The notes beneath the pieces were generated by a model. That model had not been told where the DNA came from, ran no database searches, and saw nothing but the letters and a program-made list of their open reading frames with translations. Shown here piece by piece: positions 44,503 through 64,000 of a stretch of 64,000 bases of DNA. This DNA is from Arctopsyche grandis (taxonomy: Eukaryota; Arthropoda; Insecta; Trichoptera; Hydropsychidae): positions 32,158,191-32,222,190 of the forward strand of contig NC_135357.1 of the NCBI RefSeq assembly GCF_051622035.1. Reading direction: 5' to 3'. Positions within the stretch are counted from its first letter, which is position 1. Every line of letters begins with the position of its first letter. The translations under genes were made by a program, and so were the position numbers.

Positions 44503-45046
44503 CAGAAGCAGTTGATGCATTGATTGATCAATTCAATCAAATTATTGTTTTCTAAAGCCGCCGCGACTCTTTCCTTATCAGCGAGTTGTTTATTTACTGC
44601 ATGCTCCGATACGTGACTTCCGGGAGTTACCTCCACACTCACCTTAAACCTGAAATAAAATTGAAGTCATATTGGTATAAAAAATATAAAAGTTATGAAG
44701 GTTATTTGACACATTTTGAGAATTACCTATACGGTAAGGCCCGCAGTAAAAGAACCCTAATTGACAATCCAATGAGAGTAGCCATGCTGCAATGAGGTAT
44801 AGTTGGAGTGAAACTAACATGAACACTGTTGCCTTTGTTGTCCACGTTAATGTTTTTCTCTTCAACTACATGCAATTGTTCCAGGGTCAGGGGATGTTCG
44901 GGATCGTTTATGTTTCTAATTAGATCAAAAATTTCTCTTTCATCAAATTCATCGACGACATATTCGTCATATTCATTGCCGGAAGCTTCTCTGTCGCCTA
45001 CTTTCTCGAATACTTCGGGATTTATATTGTCTGCTACTTTATCCAT
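44502..45046 (-). CDS. CIAO2B: CIAO2B / galla-2, MIP18-family cytosolic iron-sulfur assembly factor
   Basis: Two exons: 45046-44727 (donor AG|GTAATT) and 44649-44502 (acceptor TTTCAG), joining in phase to 155 aa ending with TGA; the human protein is 163 aa. Exon 1 contains [20 protein letters not shown] and [18 protein letters not shown], with the family's invariant Cys at residue 86. Exon 2 contains [20 protein letters not shown] and [12 protein letters not shown]. The [11 protein letters not shown] and [12 protein letters not shown] wording separates it from the CIAO2A paralogue. Known role: with CIAO1 and MMS19 it forms the CIA targeting complex in cytosol and nucleus, delivering [4Fe-4S] clusters to DNA polymerases, helicases and other enzymes. 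A polyadenylation signal AATAAA overlaps the stop codon. No truncation or damage is visible. Confidence 0.95.
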
Positions 45047-45056
45047 ATTTTATTGA

Positions 45057-49088: not shown

Positions 49089-50383
49089 TTAATTGTTATT
49101 ATTAATATTACATAATTCTTCTAACATTTTAAAATAACAATACTTTATATCATATTCCATATCATACCAGTAATTCACAGCAATACATCGGTGGCTTTGC
49201 TTAACGTGATGAAACCACAAACTTGGCAAGTAAAGGCAGTCTCCTTTTTCAACGCGAACTGTGAACCTATGAGCCATTTTGAATTCAGCATGCTTTTTAA
49301 AATCTGGATATAACGGATCGATATCAATCCATTTAATTTTATCAGAACTGTATTCATCGTCGTTTGGCTGCGAGCACAGAGGCTGAATTTTGAAAGTTGG
49401 AGAGGCTGGATAATTTATCATCTCATACGTAGCTGAAGGAAAAACCTTGTAAGGAACAAATGGCAAATCCGTTGGAGGTATTAAAATAAATTCTTTCCAT
49501 CCATCAATCACACAATACATATTTTCATATGGATCTTTATGCACTAAAAATGACAATAAATTAAGAATAAAACACTATCACATTTCTAGGATTAAATAGC
49601 ACATGACTAACTTGATGTGATAGCACGACTATCACCCATCCAAAAATTAACAGCATCTGGCCGTTTTCCAAAAGCTTCGGTTGCTTTATCAATGTCAAGA
49701 TTAACATCATTCATCAATTCTTCAAAATCTTCAGTTAAATTAGAATTTTGAGTTTGAATGTAAGGAATAAAACCAGGTCTAGCTTAAAGTATCAATTGAG
49801 AAATATTTATACAATGAATAAGATGTTTAAACAAAATGATTTGGGTGAAACTTTACCTTTTTTCATCTAGGTAATTCAAAAACTCTGACATGGCCATTTC
49901 TTGTTCGTAAGGCACCACAAAATACTCCTGTTTGGTATCGGGATCGTACGCAATACCATCTGCATAGCCGTTTGGAGTGAGAGCAACCTTTACATTCTTA
50001 TTGGGCATTATTTTTCTGCAAATTTATACGTATATAAATTTATATTTATATGCATAAAAAATACATTCATATGGGAAATTGAAAGAGAGTAAGCTGACCG
50101 GAAATAATCCGAATTCCATAACTTCGTAGCAGGCCAATGAGATATATAATTCTTCAATAGAACTGGTATATTTTTTGATACATATTTCCTGTGAAAATCC
50201 AGAGAGGTTATTTCGTCAGACTCGATACATATTTCTCGATCTAAATAAAGTTCTGTAACCATACAGCAATCATCAATTTAATAATGATCAATTACTATTG
50301 AATAGATTTAACTGTCGATTGAATTAGAAACCTGAGGATTCTTCTCGTAATATTTTTATAGCACTAATTATATTTTTGTTCAT
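49089..50383 (-). CDS. JMJD7: JMJD7, JmjC-domain lysyl hydroxylase
   Basis: Five exons, all with GT-AG borders and matching phases: 50383-50332, 50252-50099, 50015-49857, 49778-49612, 49543-49089; 328 aa, human JMJD7 is 316. Landmarks in order: ELYLDREI (18-25), [36 protein letters not shown], the iron-binding HKD triad members H179 and D181 ([12 protein letters not shown]), and the distal His in [12 protein letters not shown] (H289), followed by AVNYWYD. Known of the family: an Fe(II)/2-oxoglutarate oxygenase that hydroxylates lysines of DRG-type translation GTPases. A protease activity was also reported. All three metal ligands are present, so the enzyme should be active. AATAAA lies 3 bp after the stop (49086-49081). 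Confidence 0.95.
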
Positions 50384-50762
50384 CTTTTTGCTTTGTTTAA
50401 TTTTTATGTTGATATTTTTCACTAGATGTTAACCTCAAAAAATTTCATCCTTGTTTGACAATTGTACGAAATCTGATGGTAGATTTAGAAATAATATTCC
50501 GAATAACGACCATTAACGGATAAACATAAATAAAATTATCTTTTTGTAAAAACATTTACAATTTAATTAGATTAACATTTAAAAAACTTTTAATTCTAAA
50601 GCAAGAGAAGATTAGATGAGATTATAATTTATTAGAAAAACTCAAAAAGTGTATAAACGCGTTCAGTGTAGGTATTGTTTTACCACTAGCTGATCCAAGG
50701 GGAGGGGGTCATGGGGCTAATGACTCCCACTTTAGAGAACTACATAATGTACTTGGTAAACG
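50384..50762. other. JMJD7 upstream region
   Basis: Contains the JMJD7 promoter by position. AT-rich, with no clear core element. The start of JMJD7 and exon 1 of the Rap1-like gene are divergent and about 2 kb apart, separated by LTR and MITE debris. Confidence 0.4.
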
Positions 50763-50766
50763 GATT

Positions 50767-51368
50767 TGTAGGCATATAGTACAACTGAAATGATCTCATC
50801 AGGTCACTGCGACACATATCCAGGAAAGTCATTAACGCATGGCACACGCTCGCCTCGTCAAAAGGTCGACACGTGTTTCTATACACGTGTCTTGGAAACA
50901 AAGGAAGAACTCACTGAACCCATAAAAACCACGAACTACGTCCAGGCGTATGAACCCATAAAACCACGCTCGCAGCATAACTAGGGCAGCGCGAGTACCA
51001 AGAACAAAATATGTGCACACGACACACTTCAACCCAAAACGTTTATAAAGCAACGCAGCAACCTCCACCGGCAGAGTGAGCCTCTAGAGTTCAACTAGAT
51101 CACATCTCCGAAGAAACCTCTTTGTACATACAATAACCATTGTACCAATTGAACGCAAATAAACGATCCTCTTTCAAACTACACAACACGTGTTTCGTTA
51201 GACCGGGATACGGTCAACATACCTTCCCTGTCTTACACTGATGACCGCCGACTACTAAATTGGCGATCTTACACTGGTGACCCCCTCAACGAACGTCGCA
51301 ACTTCGCCGCAGCCAGCACTACCTGTCTTACACTGATGACCGCCGACTACTAAATTGGCGATCTTACA
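50767..51368 (+). mobile_element. LTR remnant inserted at the end of a MITE
   Basis: TGTAGG...CTTACA with GATT on both sides (50763-50766, 51369-51372). The right GATT is also the first four bases of the MITE that follows, so the LTR appears to have inserted at the MITE end. AATAAA occurs near 51160. The 3' part contains a 98-bp duplication carrying GTCTTACACTGATGACCGCC and a TGGTGACCCC sequence resembling a primer-binding region. No internal coding part. Confidence 0.5.
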
Positions 51369-51550
51369 GATTATTCCGCAAAAAGTGATCTCGCTCACGC
51401 CACTAAAATCTCGGTCACACAGTATCTGGCACTCGAGTTCTCGTTAGTACAGTCTATCGCGTGATGGTGATTGATGGAGTTTTTGGGTGCCGAATGTTCC
51501 GTGATCGAGATTTTAGTGACGTGCGTGAGATCGCTTTTTGCGGAATAATC
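51369..51550. mobile_element. complete palindromic ATTCCGC-family MITE
   Basis: 182 bp. The left arm GATTATTCCGCAAAAAGTGA is mirrored at the right, with CACTAAAATCTCG in both arms and TGGCACTCGAGTTCTCGTTA in the middle. Fragments elsewhere: 8098, 43301, 47636 and 51955. Confidence 0.85.
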
Positions 51551-51954
51551 ACCCAACCAATTTACTTATATAAAATTTAAATGATGTTTTTTTTTCGTTT
51601 CTATAGTTCAGTTAAAATAATGTTTTACAAATTAAAAAGCTTATAATAATAATTTTATAACTGATTCAACGTTTTATTATTGAAAAAAATGTATGTGTTT
51701 ATTGTAAATAATGAATGGCCCCCTGATTGCCAATTTCCTGGATCCACCCCTTGTACTTTACATAATTCATTACTCGTGTGCAAATGTTAGTTGCAACCAA
51801 AGTAATACGATTATTTGTAAAAAACATTCAAAACTAATTTGAGTCTTTTGAGTGCTTGATTCGTCACAGTTATAAAAAATAATTGGAAACATATTTTTAG
51901 TTAATAAAAAAAATTGATTCATGTCTTTAAAATAAATCCTTATTTATTGGATGT

Positions 51955-52080
51955 CATTAAAATCTCTATAATCACTAAAAAAGTCACTAAAATCTCTATA
52001 ACGGAACATCTGGCAGCCGAAAAGTCCATCATACTAACGATAACTATCATACTAATGAAAACTCGAGTGCCAAATATTCC
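51955..52080. mobile_element. ATTCCGC-family MITE, truncated by a duplication breakpoint
   Basis: CACTAAAATCTCTATAACGG, AACATCTGGCAGCCGAAAAG, ACTCGAGTGCCAAATATTCC. It extends into the start of the 2,286-bp duplicated unit. Confidence 0.65.
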
Positions 52081-52254
52081 GCATTCGAGCTTTTCATAGC
52101 AAAAATTGTCTTTGTGACCATCACAATGTGACTAATAATCCAATTACCATTGGATGACCTAATAGAATTTTCATAATGAAACATATAAAAGCCTTGTAAA
52201 AAAGAATACATTATGTATGCGTCTGATTGAAAAATGCATGGTGTTTATTTGTAG

Positions 52255-52362
52255 GTTTTACGGCCATAGTTGATCGCGTTGGCCGTTCTCGTTGGCGGGA
52301 TATTCTGTTCCTGCATCTCTGTTTAACTGTCATCTGTCAACTGTCAGTGCAGAGATGCCGCC
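52255..52362 (+). promoter_or_regulatory. putative 5' exon and promoter of the Rap1-like gene, copy 1
   Basis: CTGTCATCTGTCAACTGTCA precedes GCAGAGATGCCGCC and a perfect GTAAGT donor. The 8 coding bases complete codon 3 with the first base of exon 2 at 56713, giving MPPIYYS. No clear TATA box. Confidence 0.5.
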
Positions 52363-55300
52363 GTAAGTCATCATTTATAATATTAACTACAATATTCGTA
52401 ACTTGCGCTTTCCTAGAGATGCTTATATACTTGCATTAATACATATTAAATGTTTAATAAACAGCTGTCATGTGAATGTGTAGTACGCTATAAAATCCAG
52501 ATCCACACCTTCTTACCACGTGTTGCCTGGTTATATCAGAAAATATTTGTTACATATAAAATTGGCATTACAACCTACATATGTACATATGTACCAAAAT
52601 TATTTATTTATTCGGAAAATTTACAGTTTATTAAGTTACATAGATTGATAGTAAAAAAACAATTATGTTAAGTAAACCATTAATAATTTTCACATATAGG
52701 TAAAAAAAAGAAAAGCTCAAACATTTAAAATAAGAAACAAAAATGATAATAGAGTAAGATAGTTAGAGAAAACAAAAAGAAAAAAATAGAAATAATAGTA
52801 TAATAAAAATATCAAAATAATAAGAATAATAATATGATAAAAATTATGAAATAATAAAAATAACATAATATATAACAAAAAACAAAAAGACAAAATAAAT
52901 ACATCAAAATAAAAATTCATAATCACAATCGTAAATTTTCAATAAAATTAATCATCGAAAAACAAATTTGCAATAATCACTCTAGCTTGTATAGCATTAA
53001 TATTAAATAAGTCAAACATATAAATTGTTAAAATTAGTGTGTTGACGGTGGAGCTTGCATGCCAGATGAATGAGCTTCTTCCATAATTAGAAAAAAGTAT
53101 TAGGTATGTAAAGGAGCTCATTACATCTAGTCATTCTATTTGGCACACGCAATGATAGTCTGCTCAATAATTGAGGACAGTCGATCGAGCCTTTAAGGAT
53201 GTTCAAAATTGTTGAGATGTCAGCTATCTCCCTTCTTTTGACAAGTGGAAGTAGATGCTGACACCTACAAGCATCTTCATAGGAAGTATAGGATAATCCA
53301 AAACGGCTACTGATTATAATCTTCTTTCTTCGTTATTTCTGCTTTAAAAGAAAAATGAGAAACCCTTGGTGATAAACAAACCTTTCTCAACTTCATTTCA
53401 TGGAAAATACAATTGTTCAAATGAATTGATCGAGGCTTGCATTTATTTGTGTCAACTCTTGGCATTTCATTTATCATACACATAGTCGCGTTTTGATTAT
53501 CATACACACCTGATTTTTGCAGTATGGGTCTATTCTTCATTACCCGAACGCACTCTATCCTGATTGCATTTTATATTCATCTCTTCTTCCTTCTATCCGA
53601 ACATGTAAACAACTAACATACTATACAAAACATATTCATATATTTTTTGAACTTTTTGCATAATCAAAATTATTTTACGTTGATTTTTTTAACAAAACTG
53701 ATAACGAATGCAATCAACCGAAAGCACATATTATGAATTGTTATACAAAATATGTACATTGAATTCATATTCAATTTGTTACTATTTTCCTTTCAAATTG
53801 TATTTTGTTGCCACTGTTATACATCAAACATGAAAAAAAGTTTCATATATGTATGTCTAATTTTCCGTGTCGTATATTTATATTAACCCTTTGCCCGCGG
53901 CAATAAATATAGCGAACAAGCCCTGTACGCGGCACCTTTTTCGCAAATTTGGCAATCGAGTTTTCGACCTTAAATACAGATTTTAATATTTACTCAAGTA
54001 ACCAGATACGTTAATTAACACATAAAGTGTTATTTTAAACAATAAAAAACATAATATATCTCGTAGTTTTGGCTTAATTGTCAAATAATCATTCTTACAA
54101 TTGAGACGTATCGTCGCCATTGTTCAACAGACGTGACGTCACCTAAACGAGGTTTCAGTATTGTTCCACAAAAAACTAATTTTGACTGGTATATATTCAT
54201 TTTAAGCAAATTGAATAGATGGCATTCAACTCTCAGTAATATATTCAACCAATTTTGAACTTTAAAACAGTTGAAATAGGCGCATATAAGGCTCAAAATC
54301 CCTTGCAAAGTTCAGAAATTCTATGGAAGACAGCCGCGCTACAGAATTTTGTCGCGCAAAGCTTCCGCATTCGAGCTTTTCATAGCAAAAATTGTCTTTG
54401 TGACCATCACAATGTGACTAATAATCCAATTACCATTGGATGACCTAATAGAATTTTCATAATGAAACATATAAAAGCCTTGTAAAAAAGAATACATTAT
54501 GTATGCGTCTGATTGAAAAATGCATGGTGTTTATTTGTAGGTTTTACGGCCATAGTTGATCGCGTTGGCCGTTCTCGTTGGCGGGATATTCTGTTCCTGC
54601 ATCTCTGTTTAACTGTCATCTGTCAACTGTCAGTGCAGAGATGCCGCCGTAAGTCATCATTTATAATATTAACTACAATATTCGTAACTTGCGCTTTCCT
54701 AGAGATGCTTATATACTTGCATTAATACATATTAAATGTTTAATAAACAGCTGTCATGTGAATGTGTAGTACGCTATAAAATCCAGATCCACACCTTCTT
54801 ACCACGTGTTGCCTGGTTATATCAGAAAATATTTGTTACATATAAAATTGGCATTACAACCTACATATGTACATATGTACCAAAATTATTTATTTATTCG
54901 GAAAATTTACAGTTTATTAAGTTACATAGATTGATAGTAAAAAAACAATTATGTTAAGTAAACCATTAATAATTTTCACATATAGGTAAAAAAAAGAAAA
55001 GCTCAAACATTTAAAATAAGAAACAAAAATGATAATAGAGTAAGATAGTTAGAGAAAACAAAAAGAAAAAAATAGAAATAATAGTATAATAAAAATATCA
55101 AAATAATAAGAATAATAATATGATAAAAATTATGAAATAATAAAAATAACATAATATATAACAAAAAACAAAAAGACAAAATAAATACATCAAAATAAAA
55201 ATTCATAATCACAATCGTAAATTTTCAATAAAATTAATCATCGAAAAACAAATTTGCAATAATCACTCTAGCTTGTATAGCATTAATATTAAATAAGTCA

Positions 55301-58300
55301 AACATATAAATTGTTAAAATTAGTGTGTTGACGGTGGAGCTTGCATGCCAGATGAATGAGCTTCTTCCATAATTAGAAAAAAGTATTAGGTATGTAAAGG
55401 AGCTCATTACATCTAGTCATTCTATTTGGCACACGCAATGATAGTCTGCTCAATAATTGAGGACAGTCGATCGAGCCTTTAAGGATGTTCAAAATTGTTG
55501 AGATGTCAGCTATCTCCCTTCTTTTGACAAGTGGAAGTAGATGCTGACACCTACAAGCATCTTCATAGGAAGTATAGGATAATCCAAAACGGCTACTGAT
55601 TATAATCTTCTTTCTTCGTTATTTCTGCTTTAAAAGAAAAATGAGAAACCCTTGGTGATAAACAAACCTTTCTCAACTTCATTTCATGGAAAATACAATT
55701 GTTCAAATGAATTGATCGAGGCTTGCATTTATTTGTGTCAACTCTTGGCATTTCATTTATCATACACATAGTCGCGTTTTGATTATCATACACACCTGAT
55801 TTTTGCAGTATGGGTCTATTCTTCATTACCCGAACGCACTCTATCCTGATTGCATTTTATATTCATCTCTTCTTCCTTCTATCCGAACATGTAAACAACT
55901 AACATACTATACAAAACATATTCATATATTTTTTGAACTTTTTGCATAATCAAAATTATTTTACGTTGATTTTTTTAACAAAACTGATAACGAATGCAAT
56001 CAACCGAAAGCACATATTATGAATTGTTATACAAAATATGTACATTGAATTCATATTCAATTTGTTACTATTTTCCTTTCAAATTGTATTTTGTTGCCAC
56101 TGTTATACATCAAACATGAAAAAAAGTTTCATATATGTATGTCTAATTTTCCGTGTCGTATATTTATATTAACCCTTTGCCCGCGGCAATAAATATAGCG
56201 AACAAGCCCTGTACGCGGCACCTTTTTCGCAAATTTGGCAATCGAGTTTTCGACCTTAAATACAGATTTTAATATTTACTCAAGTAACCAGATACGTTAA
56301 TTAACACATAAAGTGTTATTTTAAACAATAAAAAACATAATATATCTCGTAGTTTTGGCTTAATTGTCAAATAATCATTCTTACAATTGAGACGTATCGT
56401 CGCCATTGTTCAACAGACGTGACGTCACCTAAACGAGGTTTCAGTATTGTTCCACAAAAAACTAATTTTGACTGGTATATATTCATTTTAAGCAAATTGA
56501 ATAGATGGCATTCAACTCTCAGTAATATATTCAACCAATTTTGAACTTTAAAACAGTTGAAATAGGCGCATATAAGGCTCAAAATCCCTTGCAAAGTTCA
56601 GAAATTCTATGGAAGACAGCCGCGCTACAGAATTTTGTCGCGCAAAGCTTCCATATAAGACGGCCGCGGGCAAACGGTTAATTTACAATTTATAAGTATT
56701 TATTTTTTTCAGTATTTACTATTCAATGAAAGAAAAAAAGGATCTTTTAAATTACATCATTAGAAATCGGGCTTTTAATGATGTAAAAGGACGAAAATTC
56801 TGGCAAGATTTTTCCAATAGCGATGTAAATAAGAAATTTTCAATAATAATGATGTTTTGTGTATATTTAATTTAGTAAATTAACATGTATTGTTTTGCAT
56901 CTAGGCAACTACGAGATCTTGGCAAAGTTTAAAAGAAGTTTTTTTAAAGAAGATATTTACTGATCTCTATAATCCATATTATGCATTGAGCAGTCAGGAC
57001 ATTCAAAGCCTGAAAATGGGGTAGGTTTAAAATTTTTCATTTGTTATATTTTTAATTCAACACATTATTATTTATTGGTATTTATTTTCAGATACAAAAG
57101 TGACAATAGAAATAAATCTTGGGCGTCTCAAGCAAAAACTAAATACTCTCCACTAAATGGTATTTATTTTTATCAATTTCAAAATATTAAAAATAAATTT
57201 ATATTTACTATACTTACAAGTATTTCGACCGTCTTTTGAACAGTTTCAAAAGCCGTATTATCAGTTGGATCTGATATTAAAAAAATTGAAAGTAAACAAA
57301 TTCAGAATGCTACGTATGTTGCTACTCCAGTCGATGCCCCTCAACAAATTGAAATAAACGATACATACGAGGAAAGTAGTAAATCGAAGGATGACCTTGT
57401 AATATCAGGCACTCCGAAAAAGTCTGTGCCGTTACAATCTTCTGACGATCTTTTTGAAGATTTGGATGTTAGTCGTATTTCTGCAACTATGGAAGAAAAA
57501 CAGCCCAGTGATGAGACTATTCAAAAACCAGTTAAAGAGCCGACGGTTCCAAAAGATCCAGTCGTTGCAAAACCTCTCAAGCAATTTGATTCGAGACTAT
57601 TCGGATTTTCTTCCGGTTTGTTCCAATTAATTTTTTAAAAAAACATATATTAGCTATGTCTCCGCTTGGTCGTTTTCGTCTTCAATGTTCGCTTTCAATT
57701 TTCATTTCAACATTCAACATGCCTTACGGCGTATATGTAGCGCATGTAGCACTTGTTCAATATCGTTGACTGAAAATTTACCATGTTTCATCAGTTCCAG
57801 CACCGCTATTTTTGTTTAGTTTACTGTCTTTGTTTTTCATTTACAATAATATGACCGAAGACACTTAATTTTTTTCTTCACTTCAGAGTTCGAATTATAT
57901 TTGCAAAACTTTTAAAGCATCATTTATTTATTTTTTTACAGTCCCATATTAGCAGAAAATTTCGATAATTTTTCATAAAATTTATTATTTTCTCCAATTT
58001 GAGGGTGTGACGTCACATGACGCACGAAAAGTTGCAAGAAAACCCAACCAGCTCGGAAGTGCGTGCGTTTCACGTGTAAAAGTCTATTCATACTATCCAT
58101 CAGTTCATGGCTACAGTATAGTACAGCAGCTCACGTAAACGACAGTTTGTATTCATACTATCCAGCACCCAACGATTCCGGCACATACAGACAAGTTTTG
58201 GCTGAGTGCAAGGCTTACAATACATTTCTTAAAATCAGCTTACATATACATACATACATACATATATAAAGAGCGCGACGATACGGCGCAATATTGTTTG

Positions 58301-61300
58301 CATTGTGAAAATATTCATATGTGCATGCGCACCTTCGCTAGTACACGTGCACTCGCCACTCTGACATAATTTTTATCCTTGCAGTCCTATAGTACCGGTA
58401 AATTTCGACAATCTTCTATAAAATGTATTATTTCCTCCGATTTGAGTGTATGACGTGACATTGTGTGACGTGACGTGACGTGACACCCTCCTGAATGGCT
58501 CAGGAGTGCGTGCCCTTCCCATGCAATCTGTCAAAACGAGTCCGTTCAATTCTAAAGGCGAAATCACACAGAGAGGCACGTGGTTTTTTTCAGATACTTT
58601 TAAAAATCCCAAAAATCACCCCCTGGAGTGTTTTCGGTGATATTTTGTCCTTGTTTTGATATAAGCTTGACACTGATTGATAACGGCTAATCCCATATTC
58701 GAAGAAATGTAGGAGAAACTTGTTGAAATAATAAGATCGTACGAATTAACAATCAACTGGGAACGCCATTTCTTGACTCGAAGTCAATACTGCGTGCCGT
58801 GCCGTTCATCTCTATGTATTTTCGGCCTAAAGCGCATGCGCTACGTGCGACAAGCGCATGCGTCTCAAGTTGCACGAATAATGAACAAGTGGAGACATAG
58901 CTAATAGACAGTGACTATAACATTATTTTCTTATATCATTCGAAACTAATTTGGTAAACATTTTCAGGTCAAACCATGGTTAATCGCAATAAAAAAAAAA
59001 ATGAGCTCACTAGTACTCCTTGTGAAGGCAAAAATAACAAGTATATTTGATATTGTGTTTATTTTGTGTGTATATAATTTGAATTGATGAAACTATTTGA
59101 ATTATTTTTCATTATCTACAGGTTTACAAAAAAGAAAAAGGAATATGATTCCACATATAGCAGTTCGAGTGACGAATCGTCGAATGCGCAGCCACAAAAA
59201 AAGTTATAAGAATGTTCATAGTTAAAATGTCTTTTCATACTGTTTTATTTGTGTAATATATTATTATTTTTATATACGCAGAGGTCAGCGAAAACGCACA
59301 TTGTATGGATTATTAAATGGAAAACTCTACCCGTTATATTGCGGAAATGTTAAATATGAGATGAATCAATGCTATTGTGAAACAAACGTCGATACTCCCG
59401 GTTGGTAATTTTTACAATTATACTATGACTGTTTTTCCATCGTTTTGTATATAGGTATATTATATATGTATGTATGTTATTTAATTTCTAGATAATTCAA
59501 TTCAGACCAGAAAAATGAGTAATATTGGTTTACAAACAAGTCTATACGATCTAGAGGATGTAATAAGTAAAGTGATCGATTAATCGGCTAGTTTTTAATT
59601 ATTTAATTTTTGTCTGTTTTTACATAATTTTCCGTTTTAGATGAATTGTTCAAAAATGATCCGGAATCATCTCCCTTATATTGGAAATTGAAATATTATT
59701 TTGATAAACAGAAAGGAAAAGACATATTCAAGTACTTATTTGTAAATTTTTTTTAAGATATTGAATTTTAGTGATTCCATTCTATTTTTGCCACTTTAGT
59801 ATGCACATATCTACTTTAGTATGCGATCTACCTTCACGTTTTTACTTTAATGTGCGGTCTCACTGTCTCAGTTCTCGCGTGTGACAGTGAGACTGAATAA
59901 TACCGACCCTAACAACCTAATCTTAAATGAATAGGGCCAACCCTAACTTAACCTAACCTAACCTGACCCTTAACCGTTTGCCTGCGGCCGTATTCTATAG
60001 AAGCTTTGCGCGACGAGTCTTCCATAGAATTTCTGAACTTTGCACGGGATTTTGAGCCTTATATGCGCCTATTTTAACTGTTTTAAGGTTCAAAATTGGT
60101 TGAATATATTACTGAGAGTTGAATGCAATCTATTCAATTTGCTTAAAATGAATATATACCAATCAAAATTAGTTTTTTGTGGAACCATACTGAAACCTCA
60201 TTTATGTGACGTCACGTCTGTTTAACAATGGCGATGATACGTCTCCATTGTATGAATGATTATTTGTTTAAAATAATACTTTATGTGTTAATTAACATAT
60301 CTGGTCACTTGAGTAAATATTAAAATCTGTATTTAAGGTCGAAAACTCGATTGCCAAATTCGCGAAAAAGGTGCCGCGTACAGGGCTTGTTCGCTATATT
60401 TATTGCCGTGGGCAAATGGTTAAATAGATAGGTATTGTCTGCTAAGATATGTTTTATTTTGTAAAAATATTGATGAAATAAAACATAAAAAAAACATCTT
60501 TGCAGCCAACGCCTATTTATTTAAGGGTCAGGTTAGGTTGGGTTAAGTTAGGATTGGCCCTATTCATTTAAGATTAAGTTGTTAGGGTCGGTATTTTCTT
60601 CGCTGCTGACGATATTTTGATAGACATGCTTCGACAACATTATGGGGCGGCAGGAAAAAACAAAAATTACATATAATAAACAGGCCGTTGCTACGATACA
60701 AATAAAAAAAAATAGTCGACTGCGATTCAAAGGTAGAACGCATGCTAAGGTAGACCGCATACTAAAGTAGCACCCTATTTTTACATTTGTGCTAATTTCT
60801 ATTTACAGATCATCAGACATTGATAATGATACAGATCTTGTCCCAAAAGACAAAAACTGTTTAAATATACCTTCAACTTCCCATAAACTGTAATGTTATA
60901 AATAAATTACAACATAAATTACACATTTAAAATATTATTAATGATTTTTTTGCTGTTTTAGAAAAAGTAATAATGCTGACGAGCAGAATGCAAAAGTAGA
61001 AAATAGTTTGCGCAAGAATCATTGCAAGATATCTATTTTCAAACATGGCCGAGTATGTTTCGTATTCAATTTTCGAATAATATAATCGCATCTCATGTGC
61101 AACAATTTTATATTACAATACTATGCATTAAAAACTTTATTTATATACATGACATTGTTATTTGTGAATATGTTGTAGGATGTTATTGATGATGTGTACG
61201 TTATGGACACGCAGAAAGCCGATATGCTTATAGATGTGTTTAAAAAGAAGCCCATTAAAGGCGATGATGATGATGTAAAAGATGTGCCTGAAAATAGTGT

Positions 61301-62798
61301 TGAAAATTATTCGCTTATGTGTAATGGTAGAACTTCACACTGATTTAATTATTTTTTATAATACGTATATTTTTGTGATTGAATAAATGCAATTTGTTTT
61401 TTAGAAGATAAGTGCAATACAGAAATAGCCGATATTGAAGAATCTATATTTGAGGCTATACATTGTACAAAGACTGAAGGAAATCTTGACGATGACAGAC
61501 AGATTTTTAGCACTTTCGAATTGGAAATGATTTTGAGTAATAATGACAATCCTAATAATAACACTAACAAAACTGAAAATATAGTAAAAGTGGATGAAAA
61601 CATTGTCACAAAAGATCAGTCAGTTGAAGATACATCAAAGAATGTGGAGCTAGATAGGTTTAGAGTAGTTTTTTTTTTAATAATTTCTTTTGATTATAAC
61701 ATATATGTGTATTATTATTGAAATAACTTCAGCTATACTTATAACGGTAGTTTTTTTTTATTATTTAAGTGGTACGTCTGTTAAAAAATCCAAAAATAAA
61801 AAAGTGGTTACAACTGATAAAAAGAATGACGAAAAAAGTCTGCCAATTGATGGTCAGTCAGATAATGTACAATTAGATAGGTTTGAAATTTTTTTATGAC
61901 ATGATTTACTATTATATATGAGCCGTTATATTTGAAAGCGGCAATAGTCCAATTTTTAGTTCCCAAAACACTATTTCTGTTTGGCTTAACTCACAAATTC
62001 TTATCATTTCTTTTAATTCGAGATGTCCAGAATCTCGGAAAAGCAGAATATAAACGTATTTCAGGCTACCAGTATTTTTAAATATTGTTAAACTGTACAA
62101 CATTATATTTAATGTTTTGTGAAATACTTCTCGAAACGAAGAAAAGTCGACGTTTGCCACTCTCAAATATAACAGCTCACATGATTATTGAAACTCTGAA
62201 CTTTAGTACTTATGAAGATAGATTTTGCTATTATTTCAGAGGAGCATCTATTAAAAAATCAAAAAATCAAAAGAAAGTGGATAAAACTGATGAAAAGGTT
62301 GACAAAAAAATTCAATCAATTGATGATCCTTCAGAAAATGTACAATTAGACGGGTTTGTAATTTTTTTATGACATTATTTACTATTATATATGAGCCGTT
62401 ATATTTGAAAGCGGCAATAGTCCAATTTTTAGTTCCCAAAACACTATTTCTGTTTGACTTAACTCACAAATTCTTATCACTTCTTTTAATTCGAGATGTA
62501 CATAATCTCGGAAAAGCAGAATATAAACGTATTACAGGCCACCAGTATTTTTAAATATTGTTAAACGCATTATATTTAATGTTTTGCGAAATATTTTGAC
62601 GGTCGACGTTTGCCACTTTCAAATATAGATAGTTGCACTCCGAGTGCATCCGAACTTTCAAAGACGCTCAAGGAGAACTTACGTAATAAAGTTCCACAAA
62701 AAAGTGTCAAGGGGTATAGTCCTTGCTACATAACTTTGTCAAACGCTTACCGTTCGTTTAAAAAGTATTTACATCTTTTTTTAACATTTAATTGGTAA
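52355..62798 (+). CDS. Rap1-type Myb-domain protein, 17 exons, about 692 aa
   Basis: Exons joined by phase: 52355-52362 (ATGCCGCC|GTAAGT; duplicate at 54641-54648), 56713-56824, 56905-57020, 57092-57159, 57244-57615, 58968-59040, 59122-59202, 59282-59400, 59492-59566, 59641-59731, 60809-60889, 60962-61052, 61179-61326, 61405-61657, 61770-61880, 62240-62353, 62633-62798. The frame stays open throughout. Residues 4-57 resemble the Rap1/TERF2IP Myb domain: YYSMKEKKDLLNYI, VKGRKFW (W33), TRSWQSLKEVFLKKI (W46). The remainder is acidic, Ser- and Lys-rich, with KRTLYGLLNGKLYP, a TPSASEL end and three ISOform-like repeats of NVxLD at exon ends 14-16. Rap1 proteins act at telomeres and as transcription regulators; here no BRCT domain precedes the Myb, and no RCT domain was identified. 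The exon 7 donor (GTTATA), the exon 17 acceptor and the true 3' end are the weakest points. Confidence 0.7.
53883..54366. mobile_element. piggyBac MITE, right end lost at duplication junction
   Basis: TTAACCCTTTGCCCGCGGC start, identical to the full copy at 56169, cut after AAAGCTTCC. Confidence 0.85.
54367..56652. repeat. 2,286-bp tandem duplication, copy 2
   Basis: Second copy. At its right end the piggyBac MITE continues intact into single-copy sequence, so this end shows the ancestral arrangement. Confidence 0.95.
54541..54648 (+). promoter_or_regulatory. putative 5' exon and promoter of the Rap1-like gene, copy 2
   Basis: Exact repeat of the 52255-52362 block. From this copy intron 1 would be 2.06 kb; from copy 1 it would be 4.35 kb. 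Both splice in frame. Confidence 0.5.
56169..56681. mobile_element. complete piggyBac-type MITE, 513 bp
   Basis: TTAA at both borders (56169-56172, 56678-56681); inverted ends TTAACCCTTTGCCCGCGGC and GCCGCGGGCAAACGGTTAA. Sub-terminal GTACGCGGCACCTTTTTCGC. It lies in intron 1, only 31 bp before exon 2. A third, inverted copy is at 59970. Confidence 0.9.
57940..58535. repeat. diverged direct repeat in intron 5
   Basis: The block with GTCCCATATTAGCAG, AAATTTCGATAATTTTTC, CTCCAATTTGAGGGTGTGAC at 57940-58075 recurs at 58380-58525 as GTCCTATAGTACCGG, AAATTTCGACAATCTTC, CTCCGATTTGAGTGTATGAC. The second copy contains a (GACGT)n expansion at 58470-58483. Confidence 0.7.
58553..58830. mobile_element. 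Harbinger-like MITE copy in intron 5
   Basis: AAAGGCGAAATCACACAGAG left end, interior CCCTGGAGTGTTTTCGGTGA and CCCATATTCGAAGAAATG, right end TGTATTTTCGGCC. Reverse orientation relative to 9818. Confidence 0.6.
59790..60771. mobile_element. 982-bp inverted-repeat element in intron 10, with telomere-like repeats in its arms
   Basis: Outer ends GCCACTTTAGTATGC and GCATACTAAAGTAGC. Farther in, arms of about 75 bp contain CCGACCCTAACAACC, ATCTTAAATGAATAGGGCCA and ACCTAACCTAACCTGACCC (left 59895-59969), mirrored at 60523-60600. ACCTAACCTAACC is three units of the insect telomere repeat TTAGG on the other strand. A piggyBac MITE is nested inside. Confidence 0.75.
59970..60423. mobile_element. nested piggyBac MITE, 454 bp, inverted copy
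   Basis: TTAA borders at 59970-59973 and 60420-60423. Same family as 56169-56681 in reverse orientation with about 59 bp missing. Inserted next to the telomere-like arm of the larger element. Confidence 0.85.
61920..62178. mobile_element. MITE in intron 15
   Basis: Inverted ends GAGCCGTTATATTTGAAAGC and the mirror of GAGCTGTTATATTTGAGAGT. A second copy with the right end cut lies at 62393-62627. Confidence 0.75.
62393..62627. mobile_element. MITE in intron 16, truncated at its right end
   Basis: Part of a direct duplication of about 473 bp that also carries exon 16. The right terminal repeat reads TTTCAAATATAG at the exon 17 acceptor region instead of the full CAAATATAACAGCTC. Confidence 0.7.
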
Positions 62799-62807
62799 AA
62801 GTCGGAA

Positions 62808-63322
62808 GTCGACCCGATCCTTCCTGTGCTTGGTTGCACTTTGCGACTACTCTAGTATTGCTGTGCCCTGAATTAACTCGACTTTTACCTGATGAAATAC
62901 TCCGACATATACTGCCTGGTTCGCATATAATTTCAGACAGTTGGGCAGCGTACGGAAATATTCCGAATTCCGGTAAAAGTGGTTATAATTTCGTGGATCC
63001 AAATGATAGTGAAATACATACGCAAAATGTGGAAAATATGTGAATGCGTGTGAAAAGAATGATGAAGCGTCAATTTGGCACAACGCGTGCCCGTATTGAT
63101 TCATATTTAGATGAATTTGCATTGAATCACAAACGAATGCGTGTATATTCCATTCGCAATATGTGGAATATTTCCGTACGCTACCCAACCATCCGAAATT
63201 ATATACGAAATAGGCAGTATATGTCGGAGTAATTCATCAGGTAAAAGTCGAGTTAATTCAGGGCACGGCAATACTATTGGCATCGAAAGAGTAGCCAATG
63301 ACAGGAAGGAGTGGGTCGACGG
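62808..63322. mobile_element. two head-to-head Merlin (IS1595/ISXO2-like) transposase fragments
   Basis: The plus-strand part, 62836-63136, reads LTRLLPDEILRHILPGSH, IISDSWAAYGNIPN, YNFVDPNDSEIHTQNVENM then a TGA where the family has Trp, then MRVKRMMKRQFGTTRA, SYLDEFALNHKR. The minus-strand part, 63293-63140, repeats the first half (LTRLLPDELLRHILP, IISDGWVAYGNIP, GIYTHSFV). The inverted arms are about 150-170 bp. IISD and the later N-E pair fit the DDE/N motif of the superfamily. Dead element. Confidence 0.8.
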
Positions 63323-63516
63323 AGCCTCGCTTCCGAGCCTAGAGGGTCCGTCCTGTCGAGAACTCTGACTTTAACTAATATTTTCTATTTAATCTATTTT
63401 CAGTAATTACTTCAGTAGTTATTTTTTCAGTAGTTACTTATGTAAAAATGTAATTTAAAACTACCTTAAATTATATATAGTTAAATACCATCCAAGTTTG
63501 ATAAATATAAATTAAT

Positions 63517-64000
63517 GTGATGTGCGCACCGCATTTTCATTTCATTAAACTGAAATCAAAAAACTCCTATGGACCAAACTCTATACCGGCTTCTCTACTC
63601 ATAGTCAACTCAGTTTATTTATCCAAGCCATTGATGCATATTTTTAATTTGGCTTTATCCTTTGGATCTTTTCCAAAGGAATGGAAAAGGTCCGGAATAA
63701 TCTTGTATAATAATCTAAATCCTGTCCATAAAAATGGTGAAGTAGACAACATCGTAAACTATAGACCTATATCTATGCTATCCTCTTTGGGTAAGCTGTG
63801 TGAAATTGTTGTATTTAATGAAATTTCCAAACAAATTGATGACTCTCAGCATGGATTCCAATCAAATAGTTCTACCACCACTAATCTACTCATATTTTTA
63901 TCATCAAAGATTGACCTGAAACATCATGTAGATGTTATATATACTGACTTCATGAAAGCAGGATATACAACATCTACATGTTGTATATACTGTTAACATC
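63517..64000 (+). pseudogene. jockey-type reverse transcriptase fragment, running off the window
   Basis: Reads LKSKNSYGPNSIPASLL, LSKPLMHIFNLALSFGSFPK, NYRPISMLSSLGKLCEIVV, DDSQHGFQSNSSTTTNLL and VDVIYTDFMKA, RT fingers and palm in the right order. A short insertion (ILYNNLN) interrupts the segment between EWKRSG and PVHKNG, and the frame breaks at DFMKA where DFSKAFD is expected. So it is inactive. The 3' part may continue beyond 64000. Confidence 0.85.

Follow-up and report, generated by a model that had tools for sequence, protein, structure and literature searches.

A predicted Rap1-type Myb gene with no detectable BRCT or RCT domain in Arctopsyche grandis

A review passage states that every known homologue of the telomere protein RAP1 has BRCT, Myb and RCT domains, and describes S. 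cerevisiae Rap1 as having a Myb and a Myb-like domain that jointly bind duplex DNA, plus BRCT and RCT (PMC10813129). Human RAP1, as outlined in excerpts of one paper, has 399 residues with a BRCT domain, a Myb domain, an acidic region and an RCT, and also has roles off telomeres (PMC8657031). The cited part of a C. elegans study describes TEBP-1 and TEBP-2, which carry no annotated domain besides a RAP1-homeodomain-like N-terminal region, bind directly to telomeric duplex and have orthologues reported in Caenorhabditis only (PMC8113555). For arthropods, the quoted portion of a 2014 BLAST survey gives no POT1, TRF1, TRF2, RAP1, TPP1 or TIN2 in two aphids, Tribolium, Apis, Anopheles, Bombyx and two mites (PMC4296714). 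Here we describe a gene of Arctopsyche grandis that we predict to encode a Rap1-type Myb domain followed by a long tail, with no detectable BRCT or RCT. It begins in a stretch of 64,000 nucleotides (the window) at 32158191-32222190 of contig NC_135357.1 (C3), in a genome of 475.7 Mb in 189 contigs. The 40 kb past the window were also read, and "extended" positions carry the window numbering on beyond 64000.

The first 57 residues of the protein match a single Pfam family, Myb_Rap1 (PF08914), and it is highly likely that they form a Rap1-type Myb domain. The landmarks named in the first-pass annotation are borne out in the translation (Y5, Y6, W33, W46 and SWQSLK at 45-50), and its placing of residues 1-60 in the Rap1 family held in a profile search, which matched Myb_Rap1 and no other Pfam family on residues 1-101 (E-values up to 1). 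Membership is borderline: a trimmed 76-residue stretch gives 27.5 bits (E=4.2e-6) for a cut-off of 27.1, and residues 1-101, with an isoelectric point (pI) of 9.8, give 26.8 bits (E=7.1e-6), slightly below it. None of three hand-made scrambles matched Myb_Rap1; two gave unrelated matches (E 0.11 and 0.21). Among 177,635 distinct PDB sequences, the top phmmer matches are both the human RAP1 Myb domain (1FEX, E=3.8e-4; 8RD4, E=0.0056), and the third and last is miRFP718nano (E=0.62). Residues 1-101 had no match in NCBIfam, a library made for bacteria and archaea. Exon 2 alone scores 13.0 bits (E=0.15, profile positions 1-33) with no PDB match, and exon 3 alone has no relevant match in the Pfam and PDB searches. 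Joined, they reach 27.5 bits over profile positions 1-52, in register across the intron. The Myb evidence lies in the joined exon pair.

A score at the family cut-off, with the Myb part alone shared, would also suit a nuclear Myb/SANT-like chromatin or transcription factor without a telomere role, either a repurposed Rap1 descendant or a convergent Myb motif, and the off-telomere roles given for human RAP1 in the excerpts of PMC8657031 point the same way. Against such a factor, the sole Pfam match and the two top PDB matches are RAP1, SWQSLK included. We consider this alternative possible, if doubtful.

The first-pass annotation joined 17 exons in phase into 692 codons and listed no borders; those used here were set in the follow-up analysis (Table 1). 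Sixteen exons stand, with GT/AG borders and consistent phase, whereas the seventeenth and the gene end at 62798 do not. Beyond the window the same frame runs through seven further exons to a stop. The full model has 23 exons and 993 residues with a single stop at its end (extended 69847), spans window 54641 to extended 69847 (C3 32212831-32228037) and is followed by AATAAA at extended 69943, 96 bases past the stop. Leaving out the exon copy at extended 64378 gives 22 exons and 956 residues; either model is possible.

Codon usage was scored with a model trained on stretches of three neighboring genes (a zinc-finger open reading frame, a JmjC/cupin exon and an Fe-S assembly exon). Exon 1 was left out as too short. 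The assigned frame is the best of three in 18 of 22 tested exons, compared with 405 of 1112 noncoding stop-free stretches (binomial P 1.7e-5). Because two modules and their copies make up exons 15-18, the 18 of 22 overstates the independent evidence. The codon signal is stronger in the tail than in the Myb exons, which are supported by the profile match instead. This is almost certainly a real single gene. Transposon insertions, repeated exons, odd donors at exons 7 and 8 and a duplicated first exon could indicate a pseudogene or two misjoined neighboring genes, but 993 codons without an internal stop and the frame preference of the exons make this extremely unlikely.

The claim that the Myb domain comes without a detectable BRCT is supported by the Pfam scans. 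These used the 956-residue version, to which the 993-residue version adds just an exon 15 copy. No BRCT was found at E-values up to 10, and in the model just three residues precede the Myb part, with no N-terminal BRCT ahead of it. Rap1_C (RCT, PF11626) was not found in the 956 residues or in their last 169 (E up to 10), a search that a strongly diverged RCT would escape; those 169 residues have no Pfam match at all at E up to 10. Since the Myb domain itself is borderline, a diverged C-terminal RCT could go undetected. The three forward frames of 50300-64000 contain no BRCT or Rap1_C match, in a scan that is weak for both because it missed the intron-split Myb; beyond 64000, frames were scanned as spliced exons only. 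An Ocnus match in Pfam (27 bits, cut-off 23, two stretches) is AT-rich, runs through stops and lies in a duplicated region, and was taken as spurious.

Exon 1 lies inside a tandem duplication of 2286 bases that also contains its upstream region, so the start is ambiguous, with ATGCCGCC at both 52355 and 54641; the protein is identical from either copy. There are no mismatches over 52077-54366 at an offset of 2286, and the duplication is either a very recent event or an assembly artefact. A BRCT, and perhaps an RCT, could have been missed if diverged or split, if encoded by a 5′ exon upstream of the ATG, or if the RCT lies beyond the reach of the Pfam profile. The failure of the three-frame scan on the Myb domain, an acceptor-like cag immediately ahead of the ATG, and the final pair of protein windows (851-970), which a crude rule calls ordered, would fit such an oversight. 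Other evidence speaks against it. Between the JmjC/cupin gene on the opposite strand and the first ATG copy there are about 2 kb in which an additional 5′ exon could fit, and no BRCT match lies there; an in-frame stop precedes the ATG by 28 codons; and the end of the protein has no Pfam match. We regard missed domains as very unlikely.

Alternatively, the gene may be a derived paralogue that lost domains, with a complete BRCT-Myb-RCT Rap1 elsewhere in the genome. A whole-genome search with PF11626 gave no candidates, but the 14 control genomes also gave none, and a search with PF08914 gave nothing, not even the Rap1-type gene, with the control genomes again empty. These searches leave room for a second gene. 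The PF11626 result, of low power, and the six insects without RAP1 in the quoted portion of the BLAST survey (PMC4296714) count against it, and we think a paralogue improbable.

The proposed exon 17 (62633..62798, +) was rejected as coding, since it lies inside a transposon nest. Adding it to the 16 exons does yield 692 residues and a stop by arithmetic. It begins just past 62627, where homology between repeated exon units stops. Another of its three frames scores higher in the codon model, and its score is equalled by 37% of 188 noncoding stretches. An inverted copy of one part, 62649-62747, lies at extended 64057-64172 with 69% identity. Two reverse-transcriptase matches follow: the first, at 63511-63993, is weak and falls below the cut-off (18.4 bits), and the second, at extended 64495-66216, or 495-2216 in the numbering of the extension past the window (L001), is strong (RVT_1, E=9.1e-34). 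Transposons probably split an intron, and the 17-exon reading ran into them. Exons 15 and 16 with their introns (61700-62627) are duplicated as a pair; the second copy, at about L001 309-2770, is split by the reverse-transcriptase element, and an extra fragment resembling the intron end and exon 16 start lies at L001:232-299. The paired copies differ in eight codons, six nonsynonymous and two silent, so purifying selection on these module copies is not shown. The stretch 62808-63320 has inverted repeats with 157-base arms that are 86% identical and an ISXO2-like transposase match (PF12762) just short of its cut-off (26.3 vs 27 bits); it is probably a broken DNA transposon.

The tail had been described as long and acidic. 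It is long, but the protein, with about 993 residues in place of 692, is only weakly acidic overall (pI 5.8 in the 956-residue version) and has basic stretches. The tail is probably mostly disordered: by a crude charge-hydropathy rule, 15 of 19 overlapping windows are disordered and four, including the last two, ordered, a rough guide because the rule calls the Myb stretch disordered too. Basic patches at 786 (KRRR) and 803 (KRLRTR) could form a bipartite nuclear import signal. Searches of PDB gave nothing convincing for residues 101-400 (best GINS, E 0.63) or 713-993 (best vimentin, E 0.045). Tail matches to Gifsy-2 and DUF7876 were weak, under their own cut-offs, and were rejected.

The genome has TTAGG telomere repeats. 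Contig C3 carries CCTAA/TTAGG arrays at both ends, and of the 13 contig-end stretches read, 11 show one or more runs of four TTAGG units and nine hold hundreds of matches; none occur at the starts of C1 and C11. Several contig ends share a satellite-like repeat with GAAATCAAAGAATTCGACATT-like sequence.

A candidate Rap1- or TEBP-like telomere role is the most likely reading of the sequence. That the protein is a reduced, diverged member of the Rap1 lineage acting as a telomere or chromatin adaptor is, in our judgment, an evenly balanced proposition. In its favor count the Pfam and PDB matches, the in-phase exon chain to one terminal stop with AATAAA beyond it, the frame preference of the exons, the TTAGG arrays at the two ends of C3, the basic residues 1-101 and the basic patches of the tail. 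We infer its expression, nuclear location, telomere binding and scaffold role. Through its Myb domain and the basic residues that follow, the protein would attach to chromatin, with TTAGG telomeres the most likely site, either contacting DNA itself or via a DNA-binding partner, and its flexible tail would be a platform on which other proteins assemble. More speculatively, and with less chance of being right, insects with TTAGG telomeres may have kept a stripped Rap1 (Myb and disordered tail) that binds the TTAGG duplex directly and replaces TRF-type proteins, in parallel to the nematode TEBPs, and that was missed earlier as diverged and intron-split.

Several observations weigh against the reduced-Rap1 reading. 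The Myb_Rap1 score sits at the cut-off of 27.1 and falls with query length, to 22.5 bits (638 residues) and 21.8 (956). In exons 2, 7, 8 and 9, the assigned frame is not the one with the top codon score. The human RAP1 Myb domain is reported, in the passages cited, not to bind DNA, having too little positive surface charge (PMC8657031; similarly PMC7045384), and helix 3 of the predicted protein, RSWQSLKEVFLKKI, is very similar to the human stretch HSWQSLKDRYLKH, by eye equally or slightly more basic. Judged by these residues, the Myb domain may or may not bind DNA directly. The RCT was not found, which leaves no known route to a TRF partner. An excerpt of a 2025 study infers that a BRCT-KU contact is widespread among aligned metazoan RAP1s (PMC12221994), so a RAP1 without BRCT is unexpected.

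What protects insect TTAGG telomeres is poorly known, and this Rap1-type Myb gene, from a genome with such telomeres, offers a concrete candidate that can be tested. Among the matches listed for titles and abstracts of open-licence literature, no description of an insect RAP1 appeared; it is possible that insect proteins are already annotated as TERF2IP-like in public databases. The gene hints that insects may retain, in reduced form, a relative of a telomere protein that arthropods were once reported to lack. If the absence of both BRCT and RCT is true, it would break the statement, in the review passage, that all known homologues have three domains (PMC10813129).

The gene adjoins a zf-AD zinc-finger gene, a type typical of insects. 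Upstream, on the minus strand, is the JmjC/cupin gene, matched by profile at window 49092-49574, with more exons to ~50280 assigned by eye; we take it to be JMJD7-like. A gene for an Fe-S assembly protein, presumably MIP18-like, is also on the minus strand (44726-45049). A repeat of ~500 bases has copies at 53875-54331, 56161-56681 and 59970-60430, one of them inverted, within introns of the model.

Table 1. Exons of the gene model and the associated duplication (window numbering, carried on as extended positions).
Feature	Position	Strand	Remarks
Exon 1, upstream copy	52355..52362	+	ATGCCGCC, gtaagt donor; same as 54641 copy
Exon 1, downstream copy, chosen for the model	54641..54648	+	27 in-frame stop-free codons without ATG ahead
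Exon 2, first part of Myb domain	56713..56824	+	assigned frame not top codon score
Exon 3, last part of Myb domain (SWQSLKEVFLKKI)	56905..57020	+	borders/phase, profile, PDB match
Exon 4	57092..57159	+	borders/phase, codon score
Exon 5, largest of the model	57244..57615	+	borders/phase, codon score
Exon 6	58968..59040	+	borders/phase, codon score
Exon 7	59122..59202	+	odd donor gttata; assigned frame not top codon score
Exon 8	59282..59400	+	odd donor gttggt; assigned frame not top codon score
Exon 9	59492..59566	+	lowest codon score of the model; assigned frame not top
Exon 10	59641..59731	+	borders/phase, codon score
Exon 11	60809..60889	+	borders/phase, codon score
Exon 12	60962..61052	+	borders/phase, codon score
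Exon 13	61179..61326	+	borders/phase, codon score
Exon 14	61405..61657	+	borders/phase, codon score
Exon 15, lysine-rich repeated module	61770..61880	+	second copy at extended 64378-64488
Exon 16, repeated module	62240..62353	+	second copy at extended 66636-66749
Downstream exons (exon 15 and exon 16 copies)	extended 64378-64488, 66636-66749	+	frame continuation
Downstream exons	extended 67062-67185, 67310-67358, 67799-67961, 69225-69553	+	frame continuation
Terminal exon with stop	extended 69669-69847	+	frame continuation
2286-base tandem duplication	52071..56652 (52071-54366 / 54357-56652)	.	contains exon 1 and upstream region

Compared with human RAP1, the protein is longer (about 993 residues) and places the Myb domain first, and its BRCT and RCT are undetected. 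By the three-domain definition we do not class it as a full RAP1. Like yeast Rap1 it is Myb-based, but one Myb was found here. The likeness to TEBP-1 and TEBP-2, drawn by description only, is a RAP1-like N-terminal module with otherwise no annotated domain; the remainder of the TEBPs is less conserved, according to the cited part of that study (PMC8113555). With metazoan RAP1/TERF2IP (human 1FEX and 8RD4) it shares the Myb domain, including SWQSLK, and a stretch that may resemble a nuclear signal.

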